From Rhodococcus pseudokoreensis (GTDB lineage Bacteria; Actinomycetota; Actinomycetes; Mycobacteriales; Mycobacteriaceae): a DNA stretch of 64,000 bases. The stretch is taken from assembly GCF_017068395.1 (NCBI RefSeq), contig NZ_CP070619.1:5456001-5520000 (forward strand), in the 5' to 3' direction. Below are positions 2,353 to 52,735 of the stretch, in pieces. Below the pieces are notes generated by a model. That model searched no databases. It had not been told where the DNA came from and saw only the letters and a program-made list of their open reading frames with translations. The position numbers and the translations under genes were made by a program. The first letter of the stretch is position 1. Every line of letters starts with the position of its first letter.

Positions 2353-3105
2353 TCAGTGGGGGCCGGTCAGGGTCCGGCTGATTCCCGCGGCGGCGGTGCG
2401 CATCGCCGCCAACTGGGACTGGGGGCTCTCGTCACGGCTGCGGTACACGATGCTGAGGGACGCGACGACCTCGTGCTTTCGGCCGAAGACGGGGACGGCA
2501 ACTCCCGTCCACCCCGGTCTGCCGTAACCGTCCGCGTAGACGAAGTGTCGTTGCCGGATGTCGGCGAGGAGTCGGCGAAGCTGGTCCGGGTTGGTCACGG
2601 TGTTGTCGGTGAGCCGCTCGAGGGGCCGGGACAACACTTCGTTCTGGAACTCCTGAGAGGCGAAGGCGAGGAGGACCAGCCCGGACGATGATGCGTGCAG
2701 AAGGTGGCGTTCAGCGATGCGTCCGGCCTCCAGGGTCGTCTGGGCCGGTGCGAGTCGCTCGAGGAAGAGCGCTGTTTCGCCGTCCAGCACGGCGAGGGTG
2801 ACGACCTCGTGGACTGCGCTTTGCAGATCGACCATGAAGGGCAGGGCGGCGTCGCGGAGTCCGACCCCCCGATTGCCGTGGGAGGCGAGTTCCCACAGAT
2901 GCAACCCGATCTTGATGTCCTTGTCGGGTGCACGGTCGAGGAGGCCGTACTTCACCATTTCCGTGACGAGCCGGTACGTGGTGGGAATGGGCAGTCCGGC
3001 GCGGTGAGCGAGGGTACTGAGCGGCATCGACTCGTTGTCCCGGTCGAATGCTTCCAGCACCCTCGTCACGCGGCTGATCAGGGATTCACCCTCGGTACTT
3101 GACAC
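2353..3105 (-). CDS. IclR-family transcriptional regulator (set A)
   Basis: This is a cytoplasmic one-component regulator of about 250 residues. The N-terminal winged helix-turn-helix covers about residues 10-70 (LSTLAHRAGLPIPTTYRLV) and the C-terminal part is the IclR effector-binding domain. The GTG at 3105 is chosen as start because GAGGTGG lies 6 bases upstream; an in-frame ATG 16 codons earlier has no ribosome site. It is closely related along its whole length to the IclR protein at 36645-37424, with shared blocks such as LAVLD, LFLERLA and SGLVLLAF/TGLVLLAF. It sits with an MHS transporter on the same strand. By analogy with the set B IclR, it may respond to a pathway intermediate; that role is inferred. 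Confidence 0.88.
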   Translation of the reverse strand: MSSTEGESLISRVTRVLEAFDRDNESMPLSTLAHRAGLPIPTTYRLVTEMVKYGLLDRAPDKDIKIGLHLWELASHGNRGVGLRDAALPFMVDLQSAVHEVVTLAVLDGETALFLERLAPAQTTLEAGRIAERHLLHASSSGLVLLAFASQEFQNEVLSRPLERLTDNTVTNPDQLRRLLADIRQRHFVYADGYGRPGWTGVAVPVFGRKHEVVASLSIVYRSRDESPQSQLAAMRTAAAGISRTLTGPH

Positions 3106-3182
3106 AGCGATCCACCTCGGGCGCTCGCAGCCCGCTTTGTGAACGATTGCCACTGCGTAGGGCTGATCCGATCATTCTTCGT

Positions 3183-4556
3183 TCATCGAGTCGGCTCCGC
3201 CTCCGCTACCTCTCGCTCCGTCATATCGAGTTCGATGCCGTCGTCTTCGGACAATACTGCCATCTCGCTGGCATTCGGAAGGCCGAGCCAGCCGACGAAG
3301 AATCCACCGATCGCGCAGATCATCACGTAGAAGGCCGGTGCGGTGGGGGAGAACTCGGAGGCCAGCCACGTGGCGACCAGCGGGGCTGTGCCGCCGAAGA
3401 TCGTGAAGGCGAGAGCATAGGGGAGAGCACTCGCGCTGGCTCGGATGTCGACGGGAAAGAGTTCGACGACGGCGAGGCCTCCGGTAATCATGGTCGAGAA
3501 CTGCAGTGTGGCAAAGATCGTGAGCCCGATGGTCGCGACGACGAACCCATGGCCCGCCATGACGAAGGTGGGGTAACTCCAGACCAATATCCCGGCAGCG
3601 AGGATCATCGCGAAGTGTTTTCTGCTGATCCGATCGGCGAGGCGACCGATCGGAAACATCGCTGCACACGCAATGCCGAGTGCGATGACGATGATGGCGA
3701 ACGCGCTGGTCTTGCTGTGGCCCTCGAAGTGCATCAAGTTGGTTGCCATGTATGCGACGGTGATGTAGCCGATGGTGGCCTTGAAGGCTACCCAGAGGAA
3801 GAGGACCAACATCTTGACCTTGGCCACGCGGAACGCCTGGACGAGCGGGGAGCGGTGGTTCTTCTCATCGCTCCTGATCACCGAGGATACCTCGGCAGCC
3901 GCCTTGTAGACGTCGGCGTCGTCTACCTTCATCCGCAGGATGAGTCCCACGATGCCGAGCGGGATCGCGAGGATGAACGGCACGCGCCACATCCATGCGT
4001 TGAGTACTTCGGTGGACACCAGAGAGCTGATGATCATTGCGATGAGCGATGCGGCAGCACTGGCACCGATAGTGGACGAGACGAGAGGCGCGGTGTTGCG
4101 GGCGCGGCTCGCCACGGGAGAATGCTCCACGACGAGAACGAAGGCCGTGGTCGACTCACCTCCGGTCGAGAAGCCTTGCAGTAGCCGGCAGAGCAGGAGC
4201 AGTACCGGTGCAAGAATTCCTACCGTCGAGTAGGTCGGCAGCATGCCGATGACCGCAGTCGCGAGACTCATCATGAGAATCGAGCTGATGAGGACGGTCT
4301 TGCGTCCCCACCGGTCTCCGATGTGCCCGAAGACGATCGCACCGAGAGGCCGGACGACGAACGACACCCCGAAGAGCGCGAAGGTCGACAGCAGACCGAC
4401 CACGGGGTCCACTTCGGGGAAGAACAGCTGGGCGATGGTGACGGCGAAGAAGCCGTAGAGCGCGTTGTCGAAGTACTCGATGAAGTTGCCGATCGCTCCG
4501 GCTCGACGCACGGTGCGGATATCGGTGGGCGGTCGGTGGTCGATGGGGGATGCCAT
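3183..4556 (-). CDS. MFS transporter, metabolite:H+ symporter (MHS) family
   Basis: This is a 12-segment membrane transporter of 457 residues of the MHS (ShiA/ProP/KgtP-like) type, probably proton-coupled import of an organic acid. The N-terminal signature AGAIGNFIEYFDNALYGF and the loop 2-3 motif GHIGDRWGRK are present. The ATG at 4556 is supported by GAGGTG 7 bases upstream; an earlier in-frame ATG would add 27 residues of atypical, cysteine-rich sequence. Paralogues of the same family lie at 21414-22784 and 41383-42741, so the region carries three MHS porters. This one is the most divergent: it has YFDNALYG where the others read FYDFTLYG. It is 77 bases downstream of, and co-oriented with, the IclR gene. 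Confidence 0.88.
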   Translation of the reverse strand: MASPIDHRPPTDIRTVRRAGAIGNFIEYFDNALYGFFAVTIAQLFFPEVDPVVGLLSTFALFGVSFVVRPLGAIVFGHIGDRWGRKTVLISSILMMSLATAVIGMLPTYSTVGILAPVLLLLCRLLQGFSTGGESTTAFVLVVEHSPVASRARNTAPLVSSTIGASAAASLIAMIISSLVSTEVLNAWMWRVPFILAIPLGIVGLILRMKVDDADVYKAAAEVSSVIRSDEKNHRSPLVQAFRVAKVKMLVLFLWVAFKATIGYITVAYMATNLMHFEGHSKTSAFAIIVIALGIACAAMFPIGRLADRISRKHFAMILAAGILVWSYPTFVMAGHGFVVATIGLTIFATLQFSTMITGGLAVVELFPVDIRASASALPYALAFTIFGGTAPLVATWLASEFSPTAPAFYVMICAIGGFFVGWLGLPNASEMAVLSEDDGIELDMTEREVAEAEPTR

Positions 4557-4928
4557 GTGCCAACACCTCGTTCGGGGACAGGTGGGTGGGAGAAAGCCTG
4601 CGGTCATGATCGGAAGGGCGCGCCAATACTCGATCACGAGCGGTTGGGCGTGCGTGAACGCGAGTTCTGCGGGCGTCGGCCTGCGGTATGACCGCTGTCA
4701 CATCTAAGCCGCGTCTTCTCGCGAAAGTCAAGAGCTGTGAATCACCGCGTCTGTGCGAGATGGGTCGGAGACCGAAATGTGCGTTCGCTCTATTTGCCTG
4801 CGCAGGTGCGAATTTCCCAAGTGTGTACACAGTGTCGGCGACTCCCGGGGTTGACCGAACCGATGACCAGATCTACCTTAAGGTAGAACCATTTATCACG
4901 AGCTGGGAATCGAGAGAGGCCGACTGTC
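4557..4928. other. Divergent intergenic region (372 bp)
   Basis: This spacer separates the minus-strand MHS transporter from the plus-strand acyl-CoA dehydrogenase. No convincing coding sequence is visible. Its right end holds a 16-bp perfect palindrome overlapping a near-match to the regional operator (listed separately). The composition is less GC-rich than the flanking genes, as expected for a double promoter. Confidence 0.7.
4872..4891. promoter_or_regulatory. Overlapping palindrome and GntR-type operator
   Basis: TCTACCTTAAGGTAGA (4872-4887) is a perfect 16-bp inverted repeat. Its right half overlaps AGGTAGAACCA (4881-4891), which differs by one base from the TGGTAGAACCA operator found four more times in set A. 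The site ends 37 bases before the acyl-CoA dehydrogenase start, a place where a bound repressor could block transcription. Assignment to the GntR-FCD protein at 12634-13410 is inferred from motif type and proximity. Confidence 0.7.
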
Positions 4929-6044
4929 GTGGCATCCGTATTTGGCGAGGAACAGAACGAACTCCGGCGGGTAGTCCGGCGGTTCTTCGAAGAGAAGTCC
5001 AGCGAGGACGAGGTCCGGCGTCTCATGGAGACCGACGACGGTTACGACCGCCGGGTGTGGGCGCAGATGGCCGGGCAACTCGGTCTGCAAGGCCTCGCCA
5101 TACCCGAGCAGTACGGCGGGTCGGGCTTCACGCAGCTCGAAATGTCGATCGTGCTCGAGGAAATGGGACGCGCTCTGGTGTGTGCCCCTGTTCTGTCGTC
5201 GGCCGTGCTCGCAGCGAACCTACTGCTCGAATCCGGTGACGAGGAGGCCAAGACCCGCCTGCTCCCCGTGATTGCCGACGGTTCGGTGATCGCGACGGTC
5301 GCGTTGGCGGAGAGCTCCGGGCGGTGGGACGGCGATGGTATCGCGATCACAGCCGAGCGGGACGCAACCGGGTGGGCAGTGACCGGTGAGAAGCTTTTCG
5401 TTCTCGACGGCGGAACCGCCGACGTCGTACTGGTCGTGGCCCGAACAGACCTGGGACTGTCGTTGTTCGAGGTGAGTGCCGGTTCGGCGGGGCTCACGGT
5501 GCGGCCGATGGACACCATGGACCGCACGCGTAAGCAATCGACGATGGTGTTCTCCCGGACGCCGGCCCGGCTGATCGGCGCCGAGGGCGGAGCGGCAATC
5601 GGCGTCGAACGCATGCTCGACCTCGCAGCGGTCGCGGTCGCCGCCGAGGACGTCGGAGGCGCCTTGCGGCAGGTCGAACTGGCCGCCGAGTATGCGCGCA
5701 CGCGTTCCCAATTCGGCAAGGTCATCGGCAGTTATCAGGCGATCAAGCAGAAACTTGCCGACATGCTGCTCTCGGTGGAGCTGTCGAAGGCGGCCGCCTA
5801 CCGGGTCGCGCAGGTCGCCGTCGACGATCCCGCCACCCTTGCGGTCGAGGCGGGCATGGCGAAGGCGCTGTGCGCCGAGACGTATGTACAGGTTGCCTAC
5901 GACACCATTCAGATCCACGGGGGCATCGGCTTCACCTGGGAGCACCCCGCGCACCTGTATTTCCGGCGCGCGAAGAGTAATGCGTCGCTGTTCGGCACGC
6001 CCGCGCACCATCGCGAGCTGGTCGCACAGCGGATGGGTCTGTGA
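4929..6044 (+). CDS. Acyl-CoA dehydrogenase, beta-type FadE subunit (set A)
   Basis: This flavoprotein of the acyl-CoA dehydrogenase fold has 371 residues: N-terminal helical domain, central beta domain (about 120-220) and C-terminal helical domain with RSQFGKVIGSYQAIK and the FAD-contact block QIHGGIGFTWEHP. The usual IYEGT segment carrying the MCAD catalytic glutamate is replaced by SLFGTP, as in partner subunits of actinobacterial heterotetrameric FadE enzymes. The gene at 50310-51497 is its paralogue and is coupled to an alpha-type subunit. The equivalent alpha-type gene for this copy is probably 27779-29023, some 22 kb away. The start is GTG, with GAGAGG about 10 bases upstream. Substrate is unknown; partnership is inferred. 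Confidence 0.88.
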   Translation: MASVFGEEQNELRRVVRRFFEEKSSEDEVRRLMETDDGYDRRVWAQMAGQLGLQGLAIPEQYGGSGFTQLEMSIVLEEMGRALVCAPVLSSAVLAANLLLESGDEEAKTRLLPVIADGSVIATVALAESSGRWDGDGIAITAERDATGWAVTGEKLFVLDGGTADVVLVVARTDLGLSLFEVSAGSAGLTVRPMDTMDRTRKQSTMVFSRTPARLIGAEGGAAIGVERMLDLAAVAVAAEDVGGALRQVELAAEYARTRSQFGKVIGSYQAIKQKLADMLLSVELSKAAAYRVAQVAVDDPATLAVEAGMAKALCAETYVQVAYDTIQIHGGIGFTWEHPAHLYFRRAKSNASLFGTPAHHRELVAQRMGL

Positions 6045-6098
6045 GCTGCGACGAGAGACGTCGCGCCCTGATTTCGACGACACGAAGGAATTCGACAA

Positions 6099-6983
6099 AT
6101 GGCTGAAACGACAACACAGCTCCTGCGGCGGCGGATCACGACGGGCCCGCTTCTCGTGGTTCCCGGCGCCGCGAACGCCCTGACCGCGCGACTCGTCGAG
6201 GAGGTCGGGTTCGAAGCGGTGTACGTGACGGGCGCGGGAATTGCGAATACCTTTCTGGGTCTTCCCGACATCGGGTTGGTGACATTGACCGAGCTGACCG
6301 CGCACGTTGCCGCGATCCGCGACGCGACCGACCTGCCGCTGATCGTCGACGCGGACACCGGGTTCGGGAACGCTGTCAGCGTGCGGCGGACCGTTCGTGA
6401 CCTCGAGCGGGCAGGGGCGGACGGAATCCAGCTCGAAGACCAGCTGTTTCCGAAGCGCTGCGGTCATTTCGGCGGAAAGCAGCTGGTCGGCACCGAGGAA
6501 ATGGTGCAGAAGATACACGCGGCCGTCGACGCGCGGCGCGACGACGACCTCGTGATCGTGGCACGAACCGATGCTCGCGCGACCGAGGGTTTCGACGCCG
6601 CGATCGACCGTGCCGCCGCGTATCGGGAGGCAGGCGCTGACGTCACGTTCGTCGAGGCGCCGCAGACGGTCGAGGAAGTGCACGCCGTGCCGGAGCGTCT
6701 GGCGTGCCCACAGCTGGTGAACTTCGTGGAAGGCGGGAAGACGCCCTTCGTGCCACTCGACGACCTGACGGGGTATTCCATCGCGCTGTTCGCGAACGCT
6801 GCGTTACAAGGAGCGATCAAGGGCACCCTGCAGGTGCTCGACGGACTGCGGGCGACTGGATCATTGGACGCCGTCGCCCACCAGCTCACGGGCTGGCAGG
6901 AGCGCCAGCGGCTCGTCGCGAAACCCTTCTACGACGCGTTGGAGGAGCGTTACGCGACGAGGTCTGCCGCCGTCTCGAGCTGA
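6099..6983 (+). CDS. Isocitrate lyase/PEP mutase superfamily lyase (PrpB-like)
   Basis: This is a TIM-barrel enzyme of 294 residues that should cleave a C-C bond in a 2-hydroxy-dicarboxylate to give pyruvate or glyoxylate, or act on oxaloacetate-like substrates. The Mg-binding segment VDADTGFGN (83-91) and the catalytic loop KRCGH (119-123, Cys121) mark the lyase branch: methylisocitrate lyase, dimethylmalate lyase and relatives. PEP mutases have different loops. It follows the acyl-CoA dehydrogenase by about 55 bases and is probably co-transcribed. A role in handling a C3 or methyl-branched fragment released by the pathway is inferred. Which 2-hydroxy-acid it cleaves cannot be told from sequence. 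Confidence 0.85.
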   Translation: MAETTTQLLRRRITTGPLLVVPGAANALTARLVEEVGFEAVYVTGAGIANTFLGLPDIGLVTLTELTAHVAAIRDATDLPLIVDADTGFGNAVSVRRTVRDLERAGADGIQLEDQLFPKRCGHFGGKQLVGTEEMVQKIHAAVDARRDDDLVIVARTDARATEGFDAAIDRAAAYREAGADVTFVEAPQTVEEVHAVPERLACPQLVNFVEGGKTPFVPLDDLTGYSIALFANAALQGAIKGTLQVLDGLRATGSLDAVAHQLTGWQERQRLVAKPFYDALEERYATRSAAVSS

Positions 6984-7097
6984 CCGGAACGGTAGCCCTG
7001 CACATCGAATAGTTCGCACTACACCGGACCGCCGGGGCACTGCCTCGGCGGGATTCGGCGTGCCAAAATAGACCGCTGACCAGCACTTTTGCGGATA

Positions 7098-7114
7098 TTT
7101 TCACTGAGTGAAAA
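7098..7114. promoter_or_regulatory. 17-bp perfect palindrome upstream of set A P450
   Basis: TTTTCACT-G-AGTGAAAA is a perfect inverted repeat with 8-base arms and one central base, about 135 bases before the P450 start in an AT-richer stretch. The symmetry and position suggest a regulator operator. It is unlike the TGGTAGAACCA sites, so a second regulator (for example the IclR protein at 2353-3105) is possible. A 10-base block GCTATTTGTG (7116-7125) follows directly and recurs before the set B P450. Confidence 0.6.
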
Positions 7115-7249
7115 CGCTATTTGTGTCGCCGGTCACGCTTGCCAGTATTGAGACACGACTTTTGACGACCACCCGCCGCAGCGGCGCACAAGCGAAAGAC
7201 GCTGCAATGACGGGCTATTCATTCTGCCTACCCCGAGGGAAGGACCACG

Positions 7250-8494
7250 ATGCCGACAGGCTTGGAGAACCCCACACTTCCGCGGTACTCGCACGAACTC
7301 GACTGGCCGGACGGACTCGCGCCGTATCGGATCATCGACGAGGAGGGAACCCAGGGCGAGCCCTACGCGCACTACGCGTGGATGAGGAAGAACGCTCCCG
7401 TGCTGCGCGTCCGGCACGACGGGGGCGACGTCTGGATGGTGGCGCGGCACGAGGACGTGCGCCGGGCGATGCGGAAGCCGAAAGTCTTCCGCTCCCAGGT
7501 CAACGACGAGCAGCCGCTCGCGTTCCTGACCTTGATCGATGCCCCCGACCACACTCGTCTCCGCAAGGTCGTGGCCGCCGCCTTCACCCCGAAGGCGATT
7601 GCAGCCGTGGAGGACCGAGTCCGGGAGGTTGCAGCCGACAAGCTGGACGAGTTGATCGCGTCCGGCGGTGGCGAGGTGGTCGAGAACTATGCGCGACCGT
7701 TGACCATGGCGACGATCAGCGGGATCCTCGATGTGCCCATCGACGACCTCGCGAAGGTCGAACTGTGGTCGGACAAGATGTTCGTGTATTTCGCTCGGCT
7801 GTCCCGCAGCGCCCCGGGCGATGACGACGACGAGGCCTACACGCTGCAGTTCTTCGACTACCTCCGCGACAATTTGCTGCGTCTCTACGATATCCGCAGC
7901 GAATCGGTGGGTGGGCACATCGCCCGGATGTGGAAGGACGACGGACTGCTGTCGGAGAAGGAGGCCACCGAGCTGTGCGGGTTCATCTTCGTCTCCGGTT
8001 TCGAAACGACCATGCGGTTGATCGGCGGAGGATTCCGAGAGCTGAGCTACAACCCCGACCTCCTCGGTCGCCTACGCGAGAACCCCGGAGATGCCGAGCG
8101 TTTCGTCGAGGAGCTCGTGCGGATGCGCGGACCGGTTCACCGTGCGGTCAGGCGAACGACGGAGGTCACCGAGATCGCAGGCGTCACCATTCCCGCCGAC
8201 TCGATCGTCAGACTGCTCATCGCCTCGGCCAACCGCGACGACACCGTGTGGTCGCATGCGGACATCTTCGACATCGATCGTGATACCGAGGGCCACTTCG
8301 GGTTCGGCTACGGCGTGCACAGCTGCCTCGGTGCGCCCCTTGCACGGTTGGAAACGCGAGTGACGGCGGAGCTGCTCGGGCAGAAGGTTCGGTCCGTGTC
8401 GTTCGACGAGCCCAACGATCTCGTGTTCTTGAAGGGCAACAGCATGACGACCGGTCCGGAGACGCTGCGCGTGGACCTGATCGCCCAGTCGTAG
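7250..8494 (+). CDS. Cytochrome P450 (set A)
   Basis: This is a soluble bacterial P450 of 414 residues. The heme-binding loop FGFGYGVHSCLG puts the thiolate ligand at Cys359; the ExxR pair is Glu288/Arg291. The I-helix oxygen-activation motif is SGFETT (249-254), where the set B paralogue has the standard AGHDTT. The ribosome site GAGGGAAGGA precedes the ATG. It heads an operon with its own ferredoxin reductase, [2Fe-2S] ferredoxin, SDR and aldehyde dehydrogenase, a class I system like those that oxidise a methyl or methylene group to an acid. The protein is collinear with the P450 at 37645-38892 over nearly its whole length. Substrate unknown. Confidence 0.95.
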   Translation: MPTGLENPTLPRYSHELDWPDGLAPYRIIDEEGTQGEPYAHYAWMRKNAPVLRVRHDGGDVWMVARHEDVRRAMRKPKVFRSQVNDEQPLAFLTLIDAPDHTRLRKVVAAAFTPKAIAAVEDRVREVAADKLDELIASGGGEVVENYARPLTMATISGILDVPIDDLAKVELWSDKMFVYFARLSRSAPGDDDDEAYTLQFFDYLRDNLLRLYDIRSESVGGHIARMWKDDGLLSEKEATELCGFIFVSGFETTMRLIGGGFRELSYNPDLLGRLRENPGDAERFVEELVRMRGPVHRAVRRTTEVTEIAGVTIPADSIVRLLIASANRDDTVWSHADIFDIDRDTEGHFGFGYGVHSCLGAPLARLETRVTAELLGQKVRSVSFDEPNDLVFLKGNSMTTGPETLRVDLIAQS

Positions 8495-8538
8495 TGGCGG
8501 TGCGTCCGTTCGGACCACCGAGTAGAGAGGAGTGCGCG

Positions 8539-9774: not shown

Positions 9775-9788
9775 GCGAGGTAACCGAA

Positions 9789-10160
9789 ATGACCGACATC
9801 CGCCGTGCCGACGTCCTCGATCCCGAGGCGCCCGATACTGCCGACCCGCGCATCGTGGTCATCGATCGCGACGGCGAACATCACCGACTCGACTGGGAGC
9901 CGGACCAGTCGCTGATGGAGGTGCTGAGAGACAACGGTCTCCCGATCCTCGCGTCGTGCGGCGGAACGGCGTCGTGCGCCACCTGCCACGTGTTCCTGGA
10001 CCCGCGAGTCACGGCGGAACTCGGGGAACGCTGCGAAGACGAGCAGGAACTGCTGGAAGAGACCGAGAGTTTCGACACCGCGAGATCGCGGTTGTCGTGT
10101 CAGGTCGAACGGTCGACGGCGCTGGACGGAATCACCGTTACCCTCGCTCCCGAAGAGTGA
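9789..10160 (+). CDS. [2Fe-2S] ferredoxin, adrenodoxin/putidaredoxin type (set A)
   Basis: This small electron carrier has 123 residues and donates electrons to the P450. Cluster ligands are Cys57, Cys63, Cys66 and Cys104 (CGGTASCATC plus a distal LSCQ), the vertebrate-type spacing. It has about 17 more N-terminal residues than the set B ferredoxin and an extra cysteine at 82. The ATG at 9789 is chosen over the GTG at 9771 because GCGAGG lies 8 bases upstream, while the GTG lacks a ribosome site and would overlap the reductase stop. It is the third gene of the P450 operon. Confidence 0.93.
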   Translation: MTDIRRADVLDPEAPDTADPRIVVIDRDGEHHRLDWEPDQSLMEVLRDNGLPILASCGGTASCATCHVFLDPRVTAELGERCEDEQELLEETESFDTARSRLSCQVERSTALDGITVTLAPEE

Positions 10161-10231
10161 CCGGTCCAGGACCCAATCACCCGCCGTGCAATCAAATCAC
10201 CAACGTACAGAGAAGAACTGAGGTTTCGAGA

Positions 10232-11002: not shown

Positions 11003-11096
11003 CCCGAGCGCACTCTGCCCCCATGCTGCCAGGGCGTGGGGCTGTCGATCCGTAGACCGCATCGCTCTCGATGCGACATGAAGGAGAAGTCATTCG

Positions 11097-44159: not shown

Positions 44160-44173
44160 CGTTCCGGCACTGA

Positions 44174-44216
44174 GAGCTCGTCCGGTCAGGGACTGACTTC
44201 CTGGCCGGACGAGCTC
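44174..44216. terminator. Bidirectional terminator hairpin
   Basis: GAGCTCGTCCGG (44174-44185) pairs with CCGGACGAGCTC (44205-44216); the inner bases extend the stem imperfectly. It ends in GTTT on the plus strand and lies between the convergent aldehyde dehydrogenase and racemase genes. Confidence 0.82.
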
Positions 44217-44228
44217 GTTTCGGCGTGG

Positions 44229-45350: not shown

Positions 45351-45378
45351 GGGGAGCGCCGATCTGTCGGGTGGGTTG

Positions 45379-47040
45379 TCAGTTGTCGATCTCGATGAGG
45401 TCGGTGGCGCCGCGTTCGAGCCACATCGCTTCGACGTTGCGGCGGATCACCTTCCCGGACGCGCTGGTGGGGAGCATGTCGTTGCGCAGCCACCAGCGGG
45501 TGGGAATTTGGAAGCGGCCGAGCGTTTGTGCTGCGTGGGCGCGGAGGTCGTCGGTGCTGACCGGGATGCCGCGGCGGATGGTCACGGCGGCGGCGACCTG
45601 TTCGCCGAGTTCGGCGTGCGGCAGCGCCACCACGATCGCCTCGGCGACCGCGGGGTGGGTGGTCAGGGCCGCGGCCACGTGGGCGCAGGAGATGTTTTCC
45701 CCGCCCCGGATGATGATGTCCTTCGAGCGGCCGCTCAGGTAGAGGTAGTTGTCGTCGTCGAGGCGGCCGAGGTCGCCGGTGTGCAGCCACCCGTCGGCGT
45801 CGACGAGGGAGTCCAGGTCGGGGTCGACGTACCCGCTCATCAGGCCGGGGCAGTTAACCAGGATTTCGCCGTTGCCGTCGGCGTCCGGGTTCGCGATGGT
45901 CACCTCGATCGGTGGGAGCAGCTTCCCGACGCAGCCCGGGCGTTCGGTGATCTCGCGGGAGGTGCCCATCGCGAGGAGGCCACCGGCCTCGGTCAGCCCG
46001 TACATCGACCCGGCCCCGCCACCCTTGAGGTTCGGGAACCGTTCCTGAACGGTGCGCCGGAAGGCGGGGGTGGACGCGGACCCGCCGAGGGGGATCGACC
46101 GGACACTGGAGGTGTTAGCGGCGGCGAAGGTGTCGTGTTCCATGACGCGGGTGACCATGGCGGGCACGGCACCCCAGGTCGTGACCTGCTCGCGTTCGAT
46201 GAGGCGCAGGACCTCCGCGGGATCGAACCGGCCGTCCTGGTACACCATCCGGGCCCCGGTGACCAGCGCCGCGGTCATTACTTGCACGCCGGCGAGGTGG
46301 AACAGCGGCACGGTGACCAGGTTGACGCTGCCGGAGCCGTGGCGGTCGAGTTCGCCGGGCAGGCGGTGGGTGGCCAGCAGCAGGTTGTGGATGTTGCCGA
46401 CGACCGAGCGCTGGGACAGCAGCACACCCTTGGCCGCCCCGGTGCTGCCGGAGGTGAACAGCACCAGGGCGGGGTCGTCCTCGGCGACGTCGGGCAGCGG
46501 CAGGTCGGGTGCGGTGTCGCCGCGGAGCAACTCACCGAGGTCGGCGACGCCGACTCCGGTGATGCCGGTGGGAACACGGTCTGCGGTGTCCTCGTCGTGG
46601 ACGATCACCACCGGGCGGACGGTGTCGAGGGCCCCTTCCAGTTCCGCGGCGCTCCACCAGGCGTTGCACAGGTCCACCACGGCGCCGAGGCAGTGCGCGG
46701 CCCAGAACGCCATCGTGCATTCGGCGTGGTTGCGGGCGAACAGGGCGACGTGATCACCCTTGCCGACGCCGAGGGTCCGGAAGTGTTCGGCGATCCGGGC
46801 CACCGCGTGTTCGTGTTCGGTGAAGCTCAGCCGGCGCTCACCCTGCACGACGTGGGTCCGGTTGCCCCAGTGGCGGGCGTCGAGCAACAGTTGCGCGACG
46901 GCGGTGCGCCGGTGGCGGTAGACCCGGCACGGGCGGCCGTGCACGAGGTCGTCGGTGGTCTCCCGGCTCCACCGGAAACCGTCGGCGGCGGGGTCGGCGG
47001 GGTCGGTGTGGGCGTCCACTGTGGTCGAGGGTGTGGTCAT
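45379..47040 (-). CDS. AMP-forming acyl-CoA ligase (set B)
   Basis: This 553-residue ANL-superfamily ligase has LFTSGSTGAAKGVLLS as the phosphate-binding motif, YGLTEAGG, HTGDLGRLDDDNYLYLSGR with the ribose-binding aspartate, and SASGKVIRRN with the catalytic lysine. It is the paralogue of 24972-26585, with the same N-terminal WSRE...HGRP motif. The ATG at 47040 is chosen since the longer frame upstream overlaps the hydratase gene and has unlike composition. It probably charges the acid product of the set B oxidations. Confidence 0.9.
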   Translation of the reverse strand: MTTPSTTVDAHTDPADPAADGFRWSRETTDDLVHGRPCRVYRHRRTAVAQLLLDARHWGNRTHVVQGERRLSFTEHEHAVARIAEHFRTLGVGKGDHVALFARNHAECTMAFWAAHCLGAVVDLCNAWWSAAELEGALDTVRPVVIVHDEDTADRVPTGITGVGVADLGELLRGDTAPDLPLPDVAEDDPALVLFTSGSTGAAKGVLLSQRSVVGNIHNLLLATHRLPGELDRHGSGSVNLVTVPLFHLAGVQVMTAALVTGARMVYQDGRFDPAEVLRLIEREQVTTWGAVPAMVTRVMEHDTFAAANTSSVRSIPLGGSASTPAFRRTVQERFPNLKGGGAGSMYGLTEAGGLLAMGTSREITERPGCVGKLLPPIEVTIANPDADGNGEILVNCPGLMSGYVDPDLDSLVDADGWLHTGDLGRLDDDNYLYLSGRSKDIIIRGGENISCAHVAAALTTHPAVAEAIVVALPHAELGEQVAAAVTIRRGIPVSTDDLRAHAAQTLGRFQIPTRWWLRNDMLPTSASGKVIRRNVEAMWLERGATDLIEIDN

Positions 47041-47083
47041 CAGGTGTGGTCCGTTTCGTGCGGTCGCGCAGGGGGCGGGAGGC

Positions 47084-47950
47084 TCATGCGGGAGGTGCGG
47101 GCAGGGTGTCGGGGGCGGGCGCCGCGAACTGCGGGGCGCGGCGTTCGGCCATGGCGGCGACGCCTTCCTTGAAATCGGGCTGCTGCATGAACTGCTCGAT
47201 GAGAGCTTTCGAATCCTCCACGGCGGTGCCGACATTCGCGTGCAGGAGCTCGGCGTAGATCTGACGTTTGGCGCCGGTCGCGGAGGCGGGGGACACCTGG
47301 GTGGCGATATAGTCGGCCACCTCGTAGACCGTGCCCAGGAAGTGCTCGTCCCGGGGATGCACGCCGTTCAGGTAGCCCATCTGATGTAGTTCTTCGGAGC
47401 GCAGGATGCGTCCGGTGATGAGGATGTCGGCGGCATTCGCCAATCCGACGATGCGGGGCAGCAGCCAGGCCAGGCCGTACTCGGCGGGCAGTCCCAGGCG
47501 TGGGGTCGCGGTGGTGAATTTGGCGCCCTGAACCGCATAGCGGAGGTCGCAGTAGCCGGCCAGGGCGACCGCGATACCGGCGCACGGTCCGTTGATGGCG
47601 GCGATCAGCGGGACGCGCAGGCCCCACATCCACACCAGGTCGTGGTCGAACTCGGGATTGACCCCGTGGCCGGGGCGGGCGAAGTCGGGCTTGTTGACGG
47701 TGTCGGAATACTTTTCGTCGGTCTCGGTGTAGAAGTCGAGTGCCTTGGTGTCGGCGCCGACGCAGAACTGGTCGCCGCCGCCGGTGAGGACCACGACCCG
47801 AACGGTGGGATCGGCGTCGAGGGTGGCCATCGTCCAGCGCAGTTCCGCGTTCATGCGGGAGGTCCAGGAGTTGCCGCGGCCGGGGCGGTCGAGCCACACC
47901 GTGGCGACGCCGTTGTCGCGGATTTCGTAGCGGGTGACCTTCAGATCCAT
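47084..47950 (-). CDS. Enoyl-CoA hydratase/isomerase family protein (set B)
   Basis: This crotonase-fold protein of 288 residues is strikingly similar to 31520-32371 from LKVTRYEI through TPRLGLPAEYGL to the C-terminal DFKEG block. The oxyanion-hole segments FCVGADTKA and INGPCAGIAVA and the GLPAEYG glutamate are all kept. Only the extreme C-terminus differs (alanine/proline-rich here). AGAGGGAA precedes the ATG at 47950. It would hydrate, or hydrate and cleave, an unsaturated acyl-CoA. Confidence 0.9.
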   Translation of the reverse strand: MDLKVTRYEIRDNGVATVWLDRPGRGNSWTSRMNAELRWTMATLDADPTVRVVVLTGGGDQFCVGADTKALDFYTETDEKYSDTVNKPDFARPGHGVNPEFDHDLVWMWGLRVPLIAAINGPCAGIAVALAGYCDLRYAVQGAKFTTATPRLGLPAEYGLAWLLPRIVGLANAADILITGRILRSEELHQMGYLNGVHPRDEHFLGTVYEVADYIATQVSPASATGAKRQIYAELLHANVGTAVEDSKALIEQFMQQPDFKEGVAAMAERRAPQFAAPAPDTLPAPPA

Positions 47951-48064
47951 GATGATTCCCTCTCGTGGTGCGCATGATCGACCCACCGCCCGGCGTGGTG
48001 AAGGCGTGCCGGGTCCACCCACGTCCCGAGGACGCCGGCCAGGTCGGAAGCGATCAGACGTGTC

Positions 48065-48859
48065 TTATTCTTCGGCGTCGGCGAGCCACATGTGGTGGAC
48101 CCGACGGGTGTTGTGAACGAGCTCGGCCACGGCCGCGTCGGCGTCGCGACGTCGAATGTGCTCGAGCAGAGCGCGCGGGCTGTGCAGGGCATCACCGGTC
48201 GGTACCTCGGCACCGAAGCGCAGGGTGAACTCGGTGAGCAGATCCATCAGCGACCGCATCATCGTCGCGATGATCGGGTTCTGAGTGGCTTCGCCGATTA
48301 GGCAATGAAATTCGATGATCGCCTCGGTCTTGCCGTTCCAGTCTTCCCGGGCGGCGAGGTCGTCGGCCTTGTGGAGCAGATCCTCCATTCGCGCGAGATC
48401 GTCGTCGGTGCGTCGGGCGCAGGCCGTCGTGACCGCGACGGTCTCGATTTCCTCACGGGCCTCGGTCAGATCCGACAGCGAGTATCGCGTCAGGAGGAGA
48501 TTGTCGGACAATGCCTTCGAGATGCTGACGGGATCGGTGGGGGCGATGAACGCTCCGCCGGTGGCTCCCTTCTTGATGGTCACGACGCCCGTGACTTCGA
48601 GCATCCGAATGGCTTCACGCACGGTGTTGCGGCTGACCTCGAATTGGGCGGCGAGTGTGCGCTCCGAGGGCAGACGGCTTCCCGGTGGCAGCTTGCCCTG
48701 CCGAACCTGGGCCCGCACCTGGTCGATGATCTCGTCGAAGGCGCGGCGGGGCCGGGCCGGGCGGAACTGGATGTCGGCGGGTTCGGTCATGGTGCCAATC
48801 ATTCCCGGTTTCGACGCGTCCGCTCCGCTCCGGTGCCGTTTCGCTACCAGTGCGGTCAT
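48065..48859 (-). CDS. GntR-family regulator, FadR subfamily with FCD domain (set B)
   Basis: This 264-residue regulator has the winged helix at about 35-105 (LPSERTLAAQFEVSRNTVREAI) and an FCD effector domain after it. The ATG at 48859 is supported by GGAGG 9 bases upstream; an internal ATG at 48790 lacks a ribosome site. A variant operator (TGGTAGTGCCA) lies 22 bases upstream of the start, and a second one precedes the divergent CoA-transferase, so it likely represses both itself and that operon. It is the paralogue of 12634-13410 and reads into the hydratase, ligase and racemase genes. Confidence 0.9.
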   Translation of the reverse strand: MTALVAKRHRSGADASKPGMIGTMTEPADIQFRPARPRRAFDEIIDQVRAQVRQGKLPPGSRLPSERTLAAQFEVSRNTVREAIRMLEVTGVVTIKKGATGGAFIAPTDPVSISKALSDNLLLTRYSLSDLTEAREEIETVAVTTACARRTDDDLARMEDLLHKADDLAAREDWNGKTEAIIEFHCLIGEATQNPIIATMMRSLMDLLTEFTLRFGAEVPTGDALHSPRALLEHIRRRDADAAVAELVHNTRRVHHMWLADAEE

Positions 48860-48881
48860 GCGCTCGTACCTCCGATTTCAT

Positions 48882-48892
48882 TGGTAGTGCCA
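48882..48892. promoter_or_regulatory. Variant GntR operator before set B GntR gene
   Basis: TGGTAGTGCCA, within ATTGGTAGTGCCATTG, shares the left half TGGTAG with the set A operator but has GCCA in place of ACCA. It sits 22 bases before the GntR start, where binding would block its own transcription or translation initiation. Confidence 0.65.
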
Positions 48893-48972
48893 TTGAAACC
48901 CCATCGCTGCCGTGAAGTCAAGGCCTGGTCAGGCCTTGACTTTCTGCTTCGGGTGTACCTGAATTGAGTCAA

Positions 48973-48983
48973 TGGCCCTACCA
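48973..48983. promoter_or_regulatory. Variant GntR operator before set B CoA-transferase
   Basis: TGGCCCTACCA reads TGGTAGGGCCA on the other strand, again with GCCA in one half and flanked by AATGG...CCATTGA. It lies 67 bases before the CoA-transferase ATG. With the site at 48882 it forms an inverted pair in the 191-base divergent promoter, mirroring the paired sites at 15903 and 15971. Confidence 0.65.
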
Positions 48984-49050
48984 TTGAGGGATCGGAAGTG
49001 CCCGCGATGCTCCGCAGCGCACCCGCTCCCCACGGATCGAAGGACTTCAC

Positions 49051-50298
49051 ATGCCGCACGATGACAACCTCCAGATGCCCGGTGATCGCCTTCCCCTGTC
49101 GGGCGTTCGTGTCGTCGACCTCTCGCAGGTCGGCGCAGGCCCGTATGCAGCGTCTCTGCTCGGTGACCTGGGCGCCGATGTGATCAAGATCGAGCCCCCG
49201 ACGGGGGAGAGCTTCCGATACATCGACAATCTGTTCGGGGTCGGCGACAGCGCCTACTTCTACGGAGTCAACCGCAGCAAACGGTCACTGACACTCGACC
49301 TGCACGAGTCCGAGGGGATGGACGTGCTGCGGCGTCTGGTCGCCGACGCAGACGTCATGATCGTCGGATTCCGGCCGGACGCCGTCACCCGCCTCGGGAT
49401 CGACTACGAGTCGATGGGCAAGCTCAACGACCAGCTGGTGTATTGCCAGCTGACCGCGTTCGGCGAAGACGGGCCTCGTGCCCACCAACCCGGCATGGAC
49501 CTGCTGGGACAGGCCATCGGCGGGATCATGGGCCTGACCGGTGAGACCGACGGCCCACCGATCAAGGCCGGTGTCCCGATGGCCGACTTCGTCGGCTCCT
49601 TCCTGCTCGGATTCTCGATCGTCTCCGCGCTGCGTGCCCGCGATCTCAACGGTCACGGCCAGAAGGTCAGCGTGAATCTGCTGGACGGCCAGATCGCGAT
49701 GCTCGCCAACATCCTGACGCACTACGACCGCACGAAGGTTCCCGTACGACCGCAGGGCGGAGGACATCCGCAAATCGCTCCGTACCAGCCCTACCAGGGC
49801 GGCGACGGCAAGGACTTCATCGTCGCGTGCCTCAACGACCGGTTCTGGCTGCGCTTGACCAAGGTCATCGACCGCCCCGAACTGGCCGACGACCCGCGCT
49901 TCGTCACCAACGCAGACCGCGTCGCGAACCGTGGAGCGCTCAACGACATTCTCATCCCGATCTTCGCGGGGCACACCACCGCGAGCTGGCTCGAACGCCT
50001 CGACCAGGTCGCGGTGCCGTGCGGACCCGTTCACCGGCTCGAGGACGTCTTCACCGAACCGCAGGTGGTGCACAACCATTCCATCACCGAACTCGAGCAC
50101 CCCATCCACGGTCGCTACCCGGTCCCCAACACGCCGTTCCGGCTCCACGGAACGCCCGCCCAGCCCCGGGGCTACGCACCGCTTCTCGGTGAGCACTCGG
50201 TCGAGATCCTGGGGGAAGCCGGCTTCACCCACGACGAAATCCGCGCACTGCTCGACAAGAGTGTGGTCACGACATCCACCGTCACCGAGCCGGCATAG
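49051..50298 (+). CDS. CaiB/BaiF family CoA-transferase (set B)
   Basis: This family III CoA-transferase of 415 residues has the expected catalytic aspartate Asp179 in GVPMADFVG, the FRPDAV motif and the RPQGGGHPQ block, collinear with 20140-21393. It would transfer CoA between pathway acids. GAAGGA precedes the ATG. Two acyl-CoA dehydrogenase genes follow with 11-base and overlapping junctions, making one operon divergent from the GntR gene. Confidence 0.9.
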   Translation: MPHDDNLQMPGDRLPLSGVRVVDLSQVGAGPYAASLLGDLGADVIKIEPPTGESFRYIDNLFGVGDSAYFYGVNRSKRSLTLDLHESEGMDVLRRLVADADVMIVGFRPDAVTRLGIDYESMGKLNDQLVYCQLTAFGEDGPRAHQPGMDLLGQAIGGIMGLTGETDGPPIKAGVPMADFVGSFLLGFSIVSALRARDLNGHGQKVSVNLLDGQIAMLANILTHYDRTKVPVRPQGGGHPQIAPYQPYQGGDGKDFIVACLNDRFWLRLTKVIDRPELADDPRFVTNADRVANRGALNDILIPIFAGHTTASWLERLDQVAVPCGPVHRLEDVFTEPQVVHNHSITELEHPIHGRYPVPNTPFRLHGTPAQPRGYAPLLGEHSVEILGEAGFTHDEIRALLDKSVVTTSTVTEPA

Positions 50299-50309
50299 AC
50301 GGTGCTCCG

Positions 50310-51497
50310 ATGACCACCACGACTGCGGACTACACCTGGCCCAGCGAACTCGCCGAACTGCGCGACGTCGTCGCGGCATTCCGTGAGCGCCACGCCGGCG
50401 AGGCGGCGGTGCGCACGCTCGCCGAGACGACTACACCACTCGATTCGCGAACCTGGCAGATCATGGCCGAACAACTCGGATTGGCCGGACTGACCGTCCC
50501 CGAGGAACTGGGCGGTGCCGGGGCGGGCTACGAATTCCTCGCGGTCGCGATGGAGGAACTCGGCAAGTCGCTCCTGCCGTCACCGCTCCTGGCCACGACG
50601 GCACTCGCGATCGGCACGCTGATGCGGGCCGGCGACGCGTCAGCGCGCGAGCGCCTGGTTCCGGCCCTCGCGGCGGGGCAGATCACCGGCACGCTCGGTT
50701 ACACCGGCGCCGACGGTCATTGGGACCCGGCGCGGAAACCACAGGTGCGGGCGACACGGAACGGGGACGGTTGGCGGCTGGACGGCACCGTTCACCACGT
50801 CCTCGACGGTGCCTCGGCCGATCTCGTTCTCGTGGTCGCCGACACCGACGAGGGTTCGTCGGTGTTCGCTGCCGAAGGTCCGCTACCCGGCCTCGTCCGC
50901 TCGCCGATGGCGACTCTCGACGGCACCCGGAGCCAGGCCCGGCTCGACTTCCACGACGTTCCGGCGACCGCGGTCGGAGTGCTCGGTGCCGCGGCGCCCA
51001 CGGTCGAGGCCGTCCTCACCCGTGCGGCCGTGCTGCTGGCGGCCGAACAGGTCGGGGGAGCGCAGTACTGCCTCGACACCGCGGTGACATACGCCGGGAC
51101 CCGCACGCAGTTCGGGCGGGCAATCGGTTCGTATCAGGCGATCAAGCACAAGTGTGTCGATATGTATCTCGAGATCGAATCAGCGCGTGCGGCAGTGTAT
51201 TACGCTGCGTCCTGTCTGACGGTGAACTCGGCCGACGCCGAGCCGGCCGCGTCCATTGCCAAGACGCTCGCGTCGGCGGCGTTCGACCGCGCCTCTGCCG
51301 ACAGCATCCAGATCCACGGCGGAATCGGATTCACGTGGGAACACCCGGCGCACTTGTACTTCCGGCGGGCGATCTCCACCCGCGCGCTCTTCGGAGACCC
51401 GCGCAGGCACCACGAAGTCGTGGCCGCCTCTCTACTGGACCGAACTACACGCAGCGACGCCTCGACGTCGCCTCCCGAATCCCGGAGGGTGCAATGA
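50310..51497 (+). CDS. Acyl-CoA dehydrogenase, beta-type FadE subunit (set B)
   Basis: This acyl-CoA dehydrogenase-fold protein has 395 residues: RTQFGRAIGSYQAIK in the C-terminal domain and QIHGGIGFTWEHP for flavin contact, but no IYEGT glutamate (ALFGDP instead). It is the paralogue of 4929-6044. Its last bases overlap the ATG of the next dehydrogenase (ATGA), the arrangement seen for two-subunit FadE enzymes of actinobacterial sterol degradation, where active sites form only in the mixed complex. A heterotetramer with the next gene product is inferred. Confidence 0.88.
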   Translation: MTTTTADYTWPSELAELRDVVAAFRERHAGEAAVRTLAETTTPLDSRTWQIMAEQLGLAGLTVPEELGGAGAGYEFLAVAMEELGKSLLPSPLLATTALAIGTLMRAGDASARERLVPALAAGQITGTLGYTGADGHWDPARKPQVRATRNGDGWRLDGTVHHVLDGASADLVLVVADTDEGSSVFAAEGPLPGLVRSPMATLDGTRSQARLDFHDVPATAVGVLGAAAPTVEAVLTRAAVLLAAEQVGGAQYCLDTAVTYAGTRTQFGRAIGSYQAIKHKCVDMYLEIESARAAVYYAASCLTVNSADAEPAASIAKTLASAAFDRASADSIQIHGGIGFTWEHPAHLYFRRAISTRALFGDPRRHHEVVAASLLDRTTRSDASTSPPESRRVQ

Positions 51498-52735
51498 AGG
51501 TCGACGATGAACGTGTCCTGTCGGACGACGGACTCGAGAACAGAGCCTTGTCGTTTCTGGCCGATCGCCGCCGACGCAGTCGCACGCAGGGTGCACTCGT
51601 GTGGGGCGAGGGGGATGACGGTGCGGTAGCGATCTGGGACGACCCCGATCCCGACGTCGAGCGTGCCGAACTCGACGTCGCGCGCACCTACCGCCGCGCG
51701 CGCTTCGATGCCGGTTTGGGCTGGCTCGACGGGCCCGTCGAGCACGGGGGCGCGGGGCTGAGCGCCGCATCCCAGCGCCGTTTCGCGGCGCTCGAGGCGC
51801 AGTTCGACACTCCCTCACAGGCATTCTTCAAGCTCGACCGGGTGCTGACGCCGATCTTGCTCCGCTACGCGGATCCGGAGATCGCCCGGCAACACGTCCG
51901 AGGCCTGTTTCGCGGCGATGTCATCGGATGCGAGTTGTTCAGCGAACCCGGAGCCGGCTCCGACCTCGCGAGTCTCACGACGAAGGCGGTACTGGACGGT
52001 GACACCTGGATCGTCGACGGCCAGAAGGTCTGGACGTCGGATGCCCACTACGCCGATATCGGGCTCGCGCTGTGCCGCACCGAATCCCAGGTGTCCGGGC
52101 GCAAAGGTCTGACTGCGTTCCTGGTGGACATGCGGCAACCCGGCGTCGAGGTGCGGCCGTTGCGGCAGATCACCGGGGGCTCCTCCTTCAACGAGGTGTT
52201 CCTCACCGGTGTCCGCGTCCCCGATTCCCACCGAATCGGGGCCCGCGGTCAGGGGTGGGAGGTGGCGCAGGAAACGTTGAAGATCGAACGCACCGCGATC
52301 GGTGTGGGGATGGGGCGGGGCGGTGCCGGTGTGGCCAACGGGGAGCGCCTGGTCGCGCTGGTCCGGTCCCTCGGCCTGGAGAACGACCCCATCGTCCGGC
52401 AGCGATTGGCCGAGGTAGTCATGGCGTTCCGGGCGGCGAAGCATCTCCAGCACGTCACCAGCGCACGGCGCCGGGCCGGGGACAACCCGACGGCGTCTCC
52501 ACTACTTGCGAAGCTGACACTGTCCAACAACCTGCGTTTGGCATCGCGCTTCGTCACCGATCTGCTCGGTCCGCGGCTCGCTGCCGACACCGGCGAATGG
52601 GGCACGTTCGCGTGGAATCAGTTCGTCCTCGGAGAGCCGGGCATGCACATCATGGCGGGCACCGACGAGGTAGTCCACAACATGATCGGCGAACAGGTCC
52701 TCGGGCTGCCACGAGAACCGCGACCGCAGTCGTGA
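51494..52735 (+). CDS. Acyl-CoA dehydrogenase, alpha-type FadE subunit (set B)
   Basis: This acyl-CoA dehydrogenase of 413 residues is the paralogue of 27779-29023: GCELFSEPGAGSD for substrate/flavin contact, WIVDGQKVWTSDAHYAD, and MAGTDEVVHNMIGEQVLG near the end. A glutamate in LKIERTAIG is the candidate catalytic base, in the isovaleryl-CoA dehydrogenase position. GGAGGGTG precedes the ATG, which overlaps the stop of the beta-type subunit. The ilvA start in turn overlaps its own stop. Confidence 0.88.
   Translation: MKVDDERVLSDDGLENRALSFLADRRRRSRTQGALVWGEGDDGAVAIWDDPDPDVERAELDVARTYRRARFDAGLGWLDGPVEHGGAGLSAASQRRFAALEAQFDTPSQAFFKLDRVLTPILLRYADPEIARQHVRGLFRGDVIGCELFSEPGAGSDLASLTTKAVLDGDTWIVDGQKVWTSDAHYADIGLALCRTESQVSGRKGLTAFLVDMRQPGVEVRPLRQITGGSSFNEVFLTGVRVPDSHRIGARGQGWEVAQETLKIERTAIGVGMGRGGAGVANGERLVALVRSLGLENDPIVRQRLAEVVMAFRAAKHLQHVTSARRRAGDNPTASPLLAKLTLSNNLRLASRFVTDLLGPRLAADTGEWGTFAWNQFVLGEPGMHIMAGTDEVVHNMIGEQVLGLPREPRPQS

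Follow-up and report, generated by a model that had tools for sequence, protein, structure and literature searches.

In the genome of Rhodococcus pseudokoreensis (9.87 Mb), a 64,000-nucleotide stretch of contig NZ_CP070619.1 (positions 5,456,001 to 5,520,000, hereafter the window) carries two neighbouring sets of catabolic genes, each including a cytochrome P450 and enzymes acting on coenzyme A (CoA) esters. Gene calling and Pfam searches showed that set A comprises 27 genes (2353-32371) and set B 14 genes (36645-52735), which are listed in Table 1. The enzyme kinds of both sets are known, and the gene families named in a preliminary description of this DNA were borne out by the Pfam make-up; no ring-cleavage genes were detected in set B by Pfam, and no thiolase was present among the Pfam hits of either set. 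We lean towards the view that a single family of aerobic ring-carboxylate islands is represented here by two subtypes, A and B, which have separate lines of inheritance and are now neighbours on one accessory segment.

Gene content and accessory location of sets A and B

A 94.7% match to the relative G006 ended at window position 2328 and resumed at window coordinate 76693, indicating that approximately 74 kb, including both sets, is accessory relative to G006; at this site, G006 carries approximately 2.4 kb of different sequence, followed after a short distance by another 3.9 kb. In the relatives G005 and G009, the match likewise broke off at window 2328-2330 and was not picked up again within the 16-17 kb examined. 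At the cut-offs used, and counting the window's own genome, the P450 was found in 1 of 28 genomes of the genus and the crotonase in 2 of 397 genomes of the order. The CaiB-type transferase CaiB1 was found in 1 of 394 genomes of the class (its own) and in 4 of 401 of the family, namely its own, Rhodococcus G004 and G009, and G1029, which is called Gordonia-like here because its crotonase resembles Gordonia humi protein P0159. No further B-like set was present among the CaiB1-matching genomes of the class or the family.

Comparison of the two sets by BLASTP revealed clear homologues in 12 of the 14 A/B pairs (44-68% identity). The values were 54% for the IclR regulator, 60% for the P450, 56% for the ferredoxin reductase, 68% for the ferredoxin, 65% for the short-chain dehydrogenase/reductase (SDR), 59% for the CoA-transferase, 51% for the racemase, 46% for the ligase, 66% for the crotonase, and 52% and 44% for the beta-like and alpha-like acyl-CoA dehydrogenases (ACADb and ACADa), respectively; the B MHS porter shared 56% identity with A_MHS2 and 47% with A_MHS1. 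The aldehyde dehydrogenase (ALDH, 35% to either A copy) and the GntR regulator (33%) paired poorly, and the claim that every B gene has a clear paralogue in A therefore stands except for these two. When the whole genome was searched, the P450s of A and B were 62% alike; of the 42 hits, the one that scored next best reached 34%. The B SDR was the sole match to the A SDR at E<=1e-40 (150 of 241 candidates scored), and the two crotonases at E<=1e-90 (6 of 98 candidates scored) and the two CaiB1 transferases at E<=1e-110 (4 of 75) matched only each other. The ligase pair is less special than these four pairs: the B ligase was the best match at 47%, followed by others at 42% and 38%.

The gene order P450-reductase-ferredoxin-SDR is identical in A and B, as previously described. 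However, the SDR gene lies on the strand opposite the P450 in the Nocardia and Amycolatopsis islands described below, so that the common order is weaker evidence than it appears. The SDRs aligned over 254 columns across all 254 residues of the A protein, in agreement with the gap-free alignment reported earlier, but the open reading frames encode 254 and 283 amino acids (aa) rather than 256 each.

Table 1. Genes of sets A and B and the in-window part of the accessory segment (window coordinates; paired values are tree supports)
Feature	Position	Strand	Remarks
Accessory segment (~74 kb), in-window part	2329..64000		continues to ~window coordinate 76692
A IclR regulator	2353..3153	-	PF01614/PF09339; A-type clade 97/98
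A MHS/MFS porter 1 (A_MHS1)	3183..4637	-	PF07690, PF00083; 70% to Amycolatopsis
A acyl-CoA dehydrogenase, alpha-like (ACADa)	4929..6044	+	PF00441/PF02771; 44% to B counterpart
A PEP-mutase/PrpB-type lyase	6099..6983	+	PF13714; TIGR02317 290.7 bits, below 354.4 cut-off
A cytochrome P450	7250..8494	+	PF00067; A-type clade in trees
A ferredoxin reductase	8494..9774	+	PF07992, PF14759
A [2Fe-2S] ferredoxin	9771..10160	+	PF00111
A SDR 1, 254 aa	10238..11002	+	PF13561; 65% to B SDR
A aldehyde dehydrogenase 1	11097..12566	+	PF00171; 72-76% in three A-type islands
A GntR-FCD regulator	12634..13410	-	PF00392, PF07729
A hot-dog thioesterase	13558..14172	-	PF03061; 54-58% in three A-type islands
A FAD ring hydroxylase	14184..15827	-	PF01494/PF21274; NF004780 above cut-off
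A gentisate-like cupin dioxygenase	16011..17084	+	PF07883; TIGR02272 247.3 of 442.1 bits; 70-74% in three A-type islands
A FAA-hydrolase, fumarylpyruvate-hydrolase type	17081..17962	+	PF01557
A PrpF-type isomerase	17979..19118	+	PF04303; PrpF 321.6 of 440.6 bits
A dienelactone-hydrolase family	19201..20121	-	PF01738
A CaiB-type CoA-transferase (CaiB1)	20068..21393	+	PF02515
A MHS porter 2 (A_MHS2)	21414..22784	+	PF07690; 56% to B MHS
A aldehyde dehydrogenase 2	22726..24291	+	PF00171; 81-82% in two A-type islands
A SnoaL-like protein	24288..24779	+	PF12680
A acyl-CoA ligase	24828..26585	+	PF00501
A alpha-methylacyl-CoA racemase type (CaiB2)	26610..27782	+	PF02515; 51% to B racemase
A acyl-CoA dehydrogenase, beta-like (ACADb)	27779..29023	+	PF02770; best PDB sequence match Tcur3483
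A alpha/beta hydrolase	28944..29807	+	PF12697
A SDR 2	29859..30611	+	PF13561
A SDR 3	30634..31467	+	PF00106
A crotonase-fold enzyme lacking both hydratase glutamates	31520..32371	+	PF00378; residue alignment
B IclR regulator	36645..37424	+	PF01614
B cytochrome P450	37645..38892	+	PF00067; with Pseudarthrobacter and Corynebacterium P450s in tree
B ferredoxin reductase	38917..40155	+	PF07992
B ferredoxin	40167..40487	+	PF00111
B SDR, 283 aa	40484..41335	+	PF13561; with Pseudarthrobacter 99/99
B MHS porter	41383..42741	+	PF00083
B aldehyde dehydrogenase	42753..44159	+	PF00171; with Pseudarthrobacter 100/100
B alpha-methylacyl-CoA racemase (CaiB2)	44229..45350	-	PF02515; 395.7 bits to 2g04
B acyl-CoA ligase	45379..47040	-	PF00501
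B crotonase-fold enzyme lacking both hydratase glutamates	47084..47950	-	PF00378; residue alignment
B GntR-FCD regulator	48065..48859	-	PF00392
B CaiB-type CoA-transferase (CaiB1)	49051..50298	+	PF02515; succinate/formyl-CoA transferase matches
B acyl-CoA dehydrogenase, alpha-like (ACADa)	50310..51497	+	PF00441; best PDB sequence match Tcur3481
B acyl-CoA dehydrogenase, beta-like (ACADb)	51494..52735	+	PF02770

Separate ancestry of the two sets in most gene families

Counterparts of set A at an identity of at least 50% were found in Amycolatopsis acidicola (26 of 27 genes), Nocardia miyunensis (20 of 27) and G1029 (19 of 27), and the A P450 is 98% identical to a P450 of Rhodococcus sp. SC4. 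The genes encoding the flavin hydroxylase, the gentisate-like dioxygenase, the FAA-hydrolase, the PrpF-type protein and the thioesterase were present in all three of these A-type islands, thereby indicating that the ring-cleavage module belongs to set A, rather than being mixed into it as had been proposed. The dioxygenase was 70-74% identical among the islands, and any further matches to it in G1029, Nocardia and the window's genome were at 35-37%. The Nocardia island lacked, among others, the reductase, one porter, ACADa and the PrpB-type lyase.

Beside the Nocardia island (L100, 612-6961) lie a second IclR gene, P450 gene (55% to A) and ligase gene (64%), and beside the Amycolatopsis island (L106, 3471-6673) lie a PaaX-like gene (49%) and a B-like ligase gene (57%). 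Variant pairing of islands may recur in three genera. In Rhodococcus G004 (L123) and G009 (L128/L129), a CaiB1 gene (77-79% to A) adjoins a racemase-like gene (53%), the CaiB1 match in G009 being split into two pieces; neither genome has a P450 of this clade at E<=1e-100.

With respect to set B, R. opacus holds a P450 that is 95% like that of B, and a single locus of Pseudarthrobacter sulfonivorans (L011) contains 10 of the 14 B genes, as well as 11 of the 27 A genes, at an identity of at least 50%. Neither a racemase nor a gentisate module was found in the 54 kb examined in Pseudarthrobacter, and its only match to the A dioxygenase (38%) is on another contig.

IQ-TREE trees were constructed for 14 families. 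For these trees and the approximately unbiased (AU) tests, rows below 42% identity were dropped except for up to three outgroups, and up to eight rows labelled chc were kept; this label was given to 14 loci, two of which (L014 and L015) were checked against NCBIfam. Set A grouped with the other A-type rows in the trees of the P450 (100/99), IclR (97/98), MHS2 (100/100), ligase (100/99), CaiB2 (96/98), ACADa (95/97), ACADb (100/99) and GntR (100/99), and the A-type clade of CaiB1 (100/99) took in the Rhodococcus G004 and G009 rows; the A-type clade of the crotonase had a support of 72/76. Set B grouped with Pseudarthrobacter in the trees of the SDR (99/99), ALDH (100/100) and ACADa (96/97), and less firmly in those of the reductase (80/89) and the P450 (74/88, or 90/68 in a larger P450 tree). 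An A+B sister pair, a grouping already put forward in the preliminary description, was rejected by the AU test in 12 of the 14 families (p_AU 2.8e-46 to 0.005); the rejections include ALDH and GntR, and thus concern 10 of the 12 clear pairs. In the larger P450 tree, the sister pair was rejected again (p 1.2e-6), with B placed among Pseudarthrobacter and Corynebacterium P450s (96/82) and A among Nocardia, Amycolatopsis and rhizobial P450s (96/98).

The preliminary description had regarded the sets as two paralogous copies of one pathway, far too divergent for a recent tandem duplication and possibly serving related substrates. The divergence and the relatedness of the substrates hold up. A duplication does not, because A is closer to other genera in nine families at high support and the sister pair was rejected in 12 of 14; nor are the sets copies of one pathway, given that ring-cleavage genes are present in A and none in B. 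The per-pair trees suggested there did reveal closer relatives elsewhere (firmly for A in nine families and for B in three), but the unrelated, independent assembly that such a result was meant to imply does not follow, since A and B still belong to one family of sets.

P450s, the CoA module and comparison with known systems

In the chc route, as outlined in PMC9795900, cyclohexanecarboxylate undergoes P450-dependent 4-hydroxylation, conversion to a ketone and aromatisation; the chc cluster is that of Sinomonas cyclohexanicum (Yamamoto et al. 2021, as cited in PMC9795900). Both sets encode a class I P450 of the chc clade together with a reductase and a ferredoxin. Among 74 named P450 loci, 25 actinobacterial loci have a P450, reductase and ferredoxin, and their P450s are 59-69% identical to that of B; within the stretch examined, none of the 25 showed a ligase, racemase, transferase, acyl-CoA dehydrogenase or crotonase match. 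Two of them were checked: Corynebacterium lemuris L014 has ChcB1, ChcC1 and ChcC2 over the NCBIfam cut-offs, and Arthrobacter L015 has ChcC1 over the cut-off and an SDR below it. Similar chc genes, below cut-off, occur in Paraburkholderia L086, where a clade P450 (13441-16230) is fused behind a BenC-like reductase (Fer2, FAD and NAD domains), the two being separated by a region matching FCD; FCD is likewise combined with P450 in database proteins of Kluyvera and Pseudocitrobacter. A Corynebacterium glutamicum P450, P0042, falls in the same clade (57% to A, 66% to B).

Substrate recognition site (SRS) segments were placed according to P450 anatomy as we take it to be. In SRS1, B has 21 of 23 letters in common with the Arthrobacter chc row L015, and A has 16 of 23; the helix I core AGHDTTT is kept in B and reads SGFETTM in the A-type P450s. 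These differences suggest that the P450s of A and B take different substrates. The structural model of the B P450 resembles many bacterial P450s, CYP109, CYP125 and CYP199A4 among them, and gave no pointer to a substrate.

Sets A and B therefore share with the chc cluster the P450 clade, the adjoining reductase and ferredoxin, the IclR regulator and, often, a nearby SDR and MHS-type porter. They differ from it in that no ChcC1 over cut-off was found genome-wide, the SDRs are far below the ChcB2 cut-off, and a ligase, a racemase, paired acyl-CoA dehydrogenases and a crotonase-fold enzyme are present instead. ChcB1 was not among the best 25 family matches listed for either SDR, and neither ChcC1 nor ChcC2 was recognised among the window proteins scanned, ChcC2 not having been searched genome-wide.

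Regarding the CoA module, the B CaiB2 aligned with mycobacterial alpha-methylacyl-CoA (FAR/MCR) racemases (395.7 bits to 2g04). The stretches AGHD, DFGGG and AIEP of B match 2g04, and A has AGHD, DFGGG and AVEP; both proteins thus carry what we take to be the catalytic His, Asp and Glu of MCR. The B CaiB1 aligned with succinate/formyl-CoA transferases. The best PDB sequence matches of the A ACADb and the B ACADa were Tcur3483 and Tcur3481, respectively, which are two chains of entry 6wy8, and the ACADa and ACADb genes are adjacent in B; the two products may form a heteromeric (alpha2beta2) enzyme.

The crotonases of A and B were aligned with the top 120 of 643 hits, giving 122 rows. No row has a glutamate at the equivalents of Glu144 and Glu164 of the rat enzyme, which we assume to be the catalytic glutamates of the hydratase; these sites hold A/S/G/T/C/V and A/T/S, respectively, in 122 of 122 rows, and Glu157 is invariant (122 of 122). 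A paralogue in L107 with the usual hydratase motifs has both glutamates. The name "hydratase" previously given to these proteins is thus not upheld for either A or B, and the lack of both residues makes an isomerase or a lyase likelier. Glu157 faces an aspartate in the alignment to 1,2-epoxyphenylacetyl-CoA isomerase (4fzw_C), presumably at the position of PaaG D136, a residue named in the title of PDB entry 6sla (D136N mutant of PaaG with oxepin-CoA). An isomerase-like role of the crotonase pair is therefore plausible on sequence grounds; the structural model matched crotonases in general, PaaG among them. A feruloyl-CoA-type hydratase/lyase was also considered and dropped, as the glutamate that we take this type to retain is absent. 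Members of the same crotonase subfamily (57-59%) occur near P450s of other kinds (26-29%) on plasmids of Cupriavidus KK10 (L135) and R. opacus G13 (L137), the former also carrying a racemase-like gene and a ligase gene (52% and 49% to A).

Paired acyl-CoA dehydrogenases and an alpha-methylacyl-CoA racemase presumably also act in actinobacterial steroid side-chain degradation, to which the sets are linked by the Tcur3483/Tcur3481 matches and the MCR/FAR kind of the B CaiB2. However, the B P450 model is 30% identical to CYP125MRCA, the Pfam hits of the sets include no thiolase or MaoC-type hydratase, and no steroid-ring gene was recognised. With the gentisate pathway, set A has in common the cupin dioxygenase, the FAA-hydrolase and the flavin ring hydroxylase, but the dioxygenase scored 247.3 bits against a TIGR02272 cut-off of 442.1, the other dioxygenase matches in three of the four A-type genomes reached only 35-37%, and PrpF- and PrpB-type genes are present in addition. 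The chcpca (bad/ali-type) cluster of Rhodococcus aetherivorans BCP1 likewise has CoA ligase and acyl-CoA dehydrogenase genes proposed to act on a ring acid, but its BadI-type hydrolase gene sets it apart, and a P450 is unmentioned in the main text (PMC5906575). Three further systems were compared and set aside: the ipf genes of the ibuprofen-type pathway, among which PMC11347016 names those for a ring dioxygenase and the thiolase pair ipfDE, both absent from the sets; the 2-isopropylphenol ipp cluster of Rhodococcus D-6, described in PMC12442392 with a two-component flavin monooxygenase and an extradiol dioxygenase, unlike the sets; and the skatole ska cluster, for which "CoA" appears nowhere in the main text (PMC13101512). 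Literature searches of open-licence papers brought up none that we recognised as a description of this gene set.

A putative route for ring-shaped acids and its alternatives

A and B probably break down two different ring-shaped acids, and from the enzyme kinds we infer every reaction step and the substrate as follows. An MHS porter would import the ring acid, the class I P450, served by the reductase and ferredoxin of its set, would hydroxylate a position far from the carboxylate, and the SDR would oxidise this position further, as would the ALDH where the site is a methyl group. A CoA ester would be made by the ligase or the CaiB1 transferase, CaiB2 would epimerise an alpha-methylacyl-CoA, the paired acyl-CoA dehydrogenases would desaturate the CoA ester, and the crotonase-fold enzyme, lacking the hydratase glutamates, would shift a double bond or break a carbon-carbon bond. 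In set A only, the ring would be hydroxylated and cleaved by the gentisate-like dioxygenase, and the product would be dismantled by the FAA-hydrolase, PrpF-type and PrpB-type enzymes. Our guess at the substrate is a cyclohexane- or benzene-carboxylate with a para-alkyl group (e.g. isopropyl), for instance a p-menthane acid.

More tentatively, the islands possibly encode a hitherto undescribed aerobic pathway for ring acids that bear a branched side chain in the para position, in which a carboxylate-anchored P450 would open the side chain, the fragment would be handled as an alpha-methylacyl-CoA, and a crotonase with a single conserved glutamate would isomerise it or break a carbon-carbon bond; in the A subtype, a divergent gentisate-like dioxygenase and the PrpF/PrpB-type enzymes would remove the still-substituted ring, and the islands would tend to gather in variant pairs. 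If the reading of A and B as ring-acid islands of one family is right, an unlabelled segment of ~74 kb could be tested as the source of a pathway for alicyclic or terpenoid acids (naphthenic-acid-like compounds), one P450 clade would have been recruited into both aromatisation (chc) and a CoA-dependent route, and the "hydratase" name of a whole crotonase subfamily would be in question.

Several results weigh against the reading of A and B as subtypes of one island family. The Pseudarthrobacter set branches on the A side for the ligase (83/90), ACADb (90/94), A_MHS1 (78/82) and CaiB1 (69/59) and is thus a mosaic, so that a clean B subtype is not established; our confidence was lowered on this account. 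No racemase was found in its 54 kb examined, so that the alpha-methyl step is not universal; in the 38 kb of G1029 examined, there was likewise no P450 (nor an IclR gene or a porter). The trees are small (6 to 22 rows each), B joins Pseudarthrobacter only weakly in the crotonase tree (65/59), A_SDR1 is not firmly placed with the A-type SDRs (34/33), and the AU test did not reject the A+B pair for the reductase (p 0.076) and the ferredoxin (p 0.084). As to the chc link, the SDRs scored 180.5 (A) and 171 bits (B) against a ChcB2 cut-off of 350, none of 26 genome matches to ChcC1 was over cut-off, and SRS5 of B is unlike the Arthrobacter chc rows, but like Corynebacterium L014. In the crotonase model, pLDDT was 59-71 in the blocks containing residues 129, 149 and 157, and 40-56 for 61-100.

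Among the alternatives, B might be another upper pathway that feeds the ring-hydroxylation and cleavage module of A, the two forming one catabolic line. We regard this as rather doubtful: ring-cleavage genes in A and none in B, and the adjacency of both on one accessory segment, are as expected, but the B-like set of Pseudarthrobacter does without this module, its only match to the A dioxygenase (38%) being on another contig. It is unlikely that the sets are chance neighbourhoods of common catabolic families. The families are indeed common, the ALDH and GntR pairs are poor, the Pseudarthrobacter set mixes A-like and B-like genes, and related crotonases lie beside unrelated P450s (27-29%) on the Cupriavidus and R. 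opacus plasmids; yet the P450s and SDRs of A and B are by far mutual best relatives, despite 42 P450 hits, the crotonases and CoA-transferases are likewise mutual best among the few candidates scored, and Pseudarthrobacter keeps 10 of the 14 B genes at 50% or more in one locus.

Very unlikely, in our view, is that the substrates are alkylphenols handled as phosphate esters. We assume that the P450 CreJ of C. glutamicum acts on phosphate esters of alkylphenols, and a P450 of this species, P0042, belongs to the same clade as the P450s of A and B; set A, moreover, has a flavin ring hydroxylase and a ring-cleavage enzyme. However, Pfam detected neither a phosphotransferase resembling phosphoenolpyruvate (PEP) synthase nor a phosphatase in either set, and the set A protein with the PF13714 match is a lyase-type one. 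Plasmid pRZP2 of Rhodococcus sp. ZPP (L136, 733-21401) carries genes for a P450, two PEP-utilising enzymes, a histidine phosphatase and an AMP-binding protein together with acyl-CoA genes, a group reminiscent of what we take to be a phosphorylation-first alkylphenol route. Finally, it is highly improbable that one cluster was duplicated within this Rhodococcus lineage and diverged, with A later gaining the gentisate module, for although twelve clear pairs stand side by side with an identical P450-reductase-ferredoxin-SDR order and the reductase and ferredoxin trees do not exclude an A+B pair, sister pairing was rejected in 12 of 14 families and the closest relatives of A, gentisate module included, are in Nocardia, Amycolatopsis and the Gordonia-like genome.

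The spacer between sets A and B (window 32712-36609) contains MFS, ABM monooxygenase, PaaX-like regulator and thioesterase-like genes, and distant homologues of its PaaX-like and thioesterase-like genes also occur near A-type islands. Elsewhere on the accessory segment (window 54456-57057, minus strand) lie haem-dependent oxidative N-demethylase and dimethylamine-monooxygenase-like genes.

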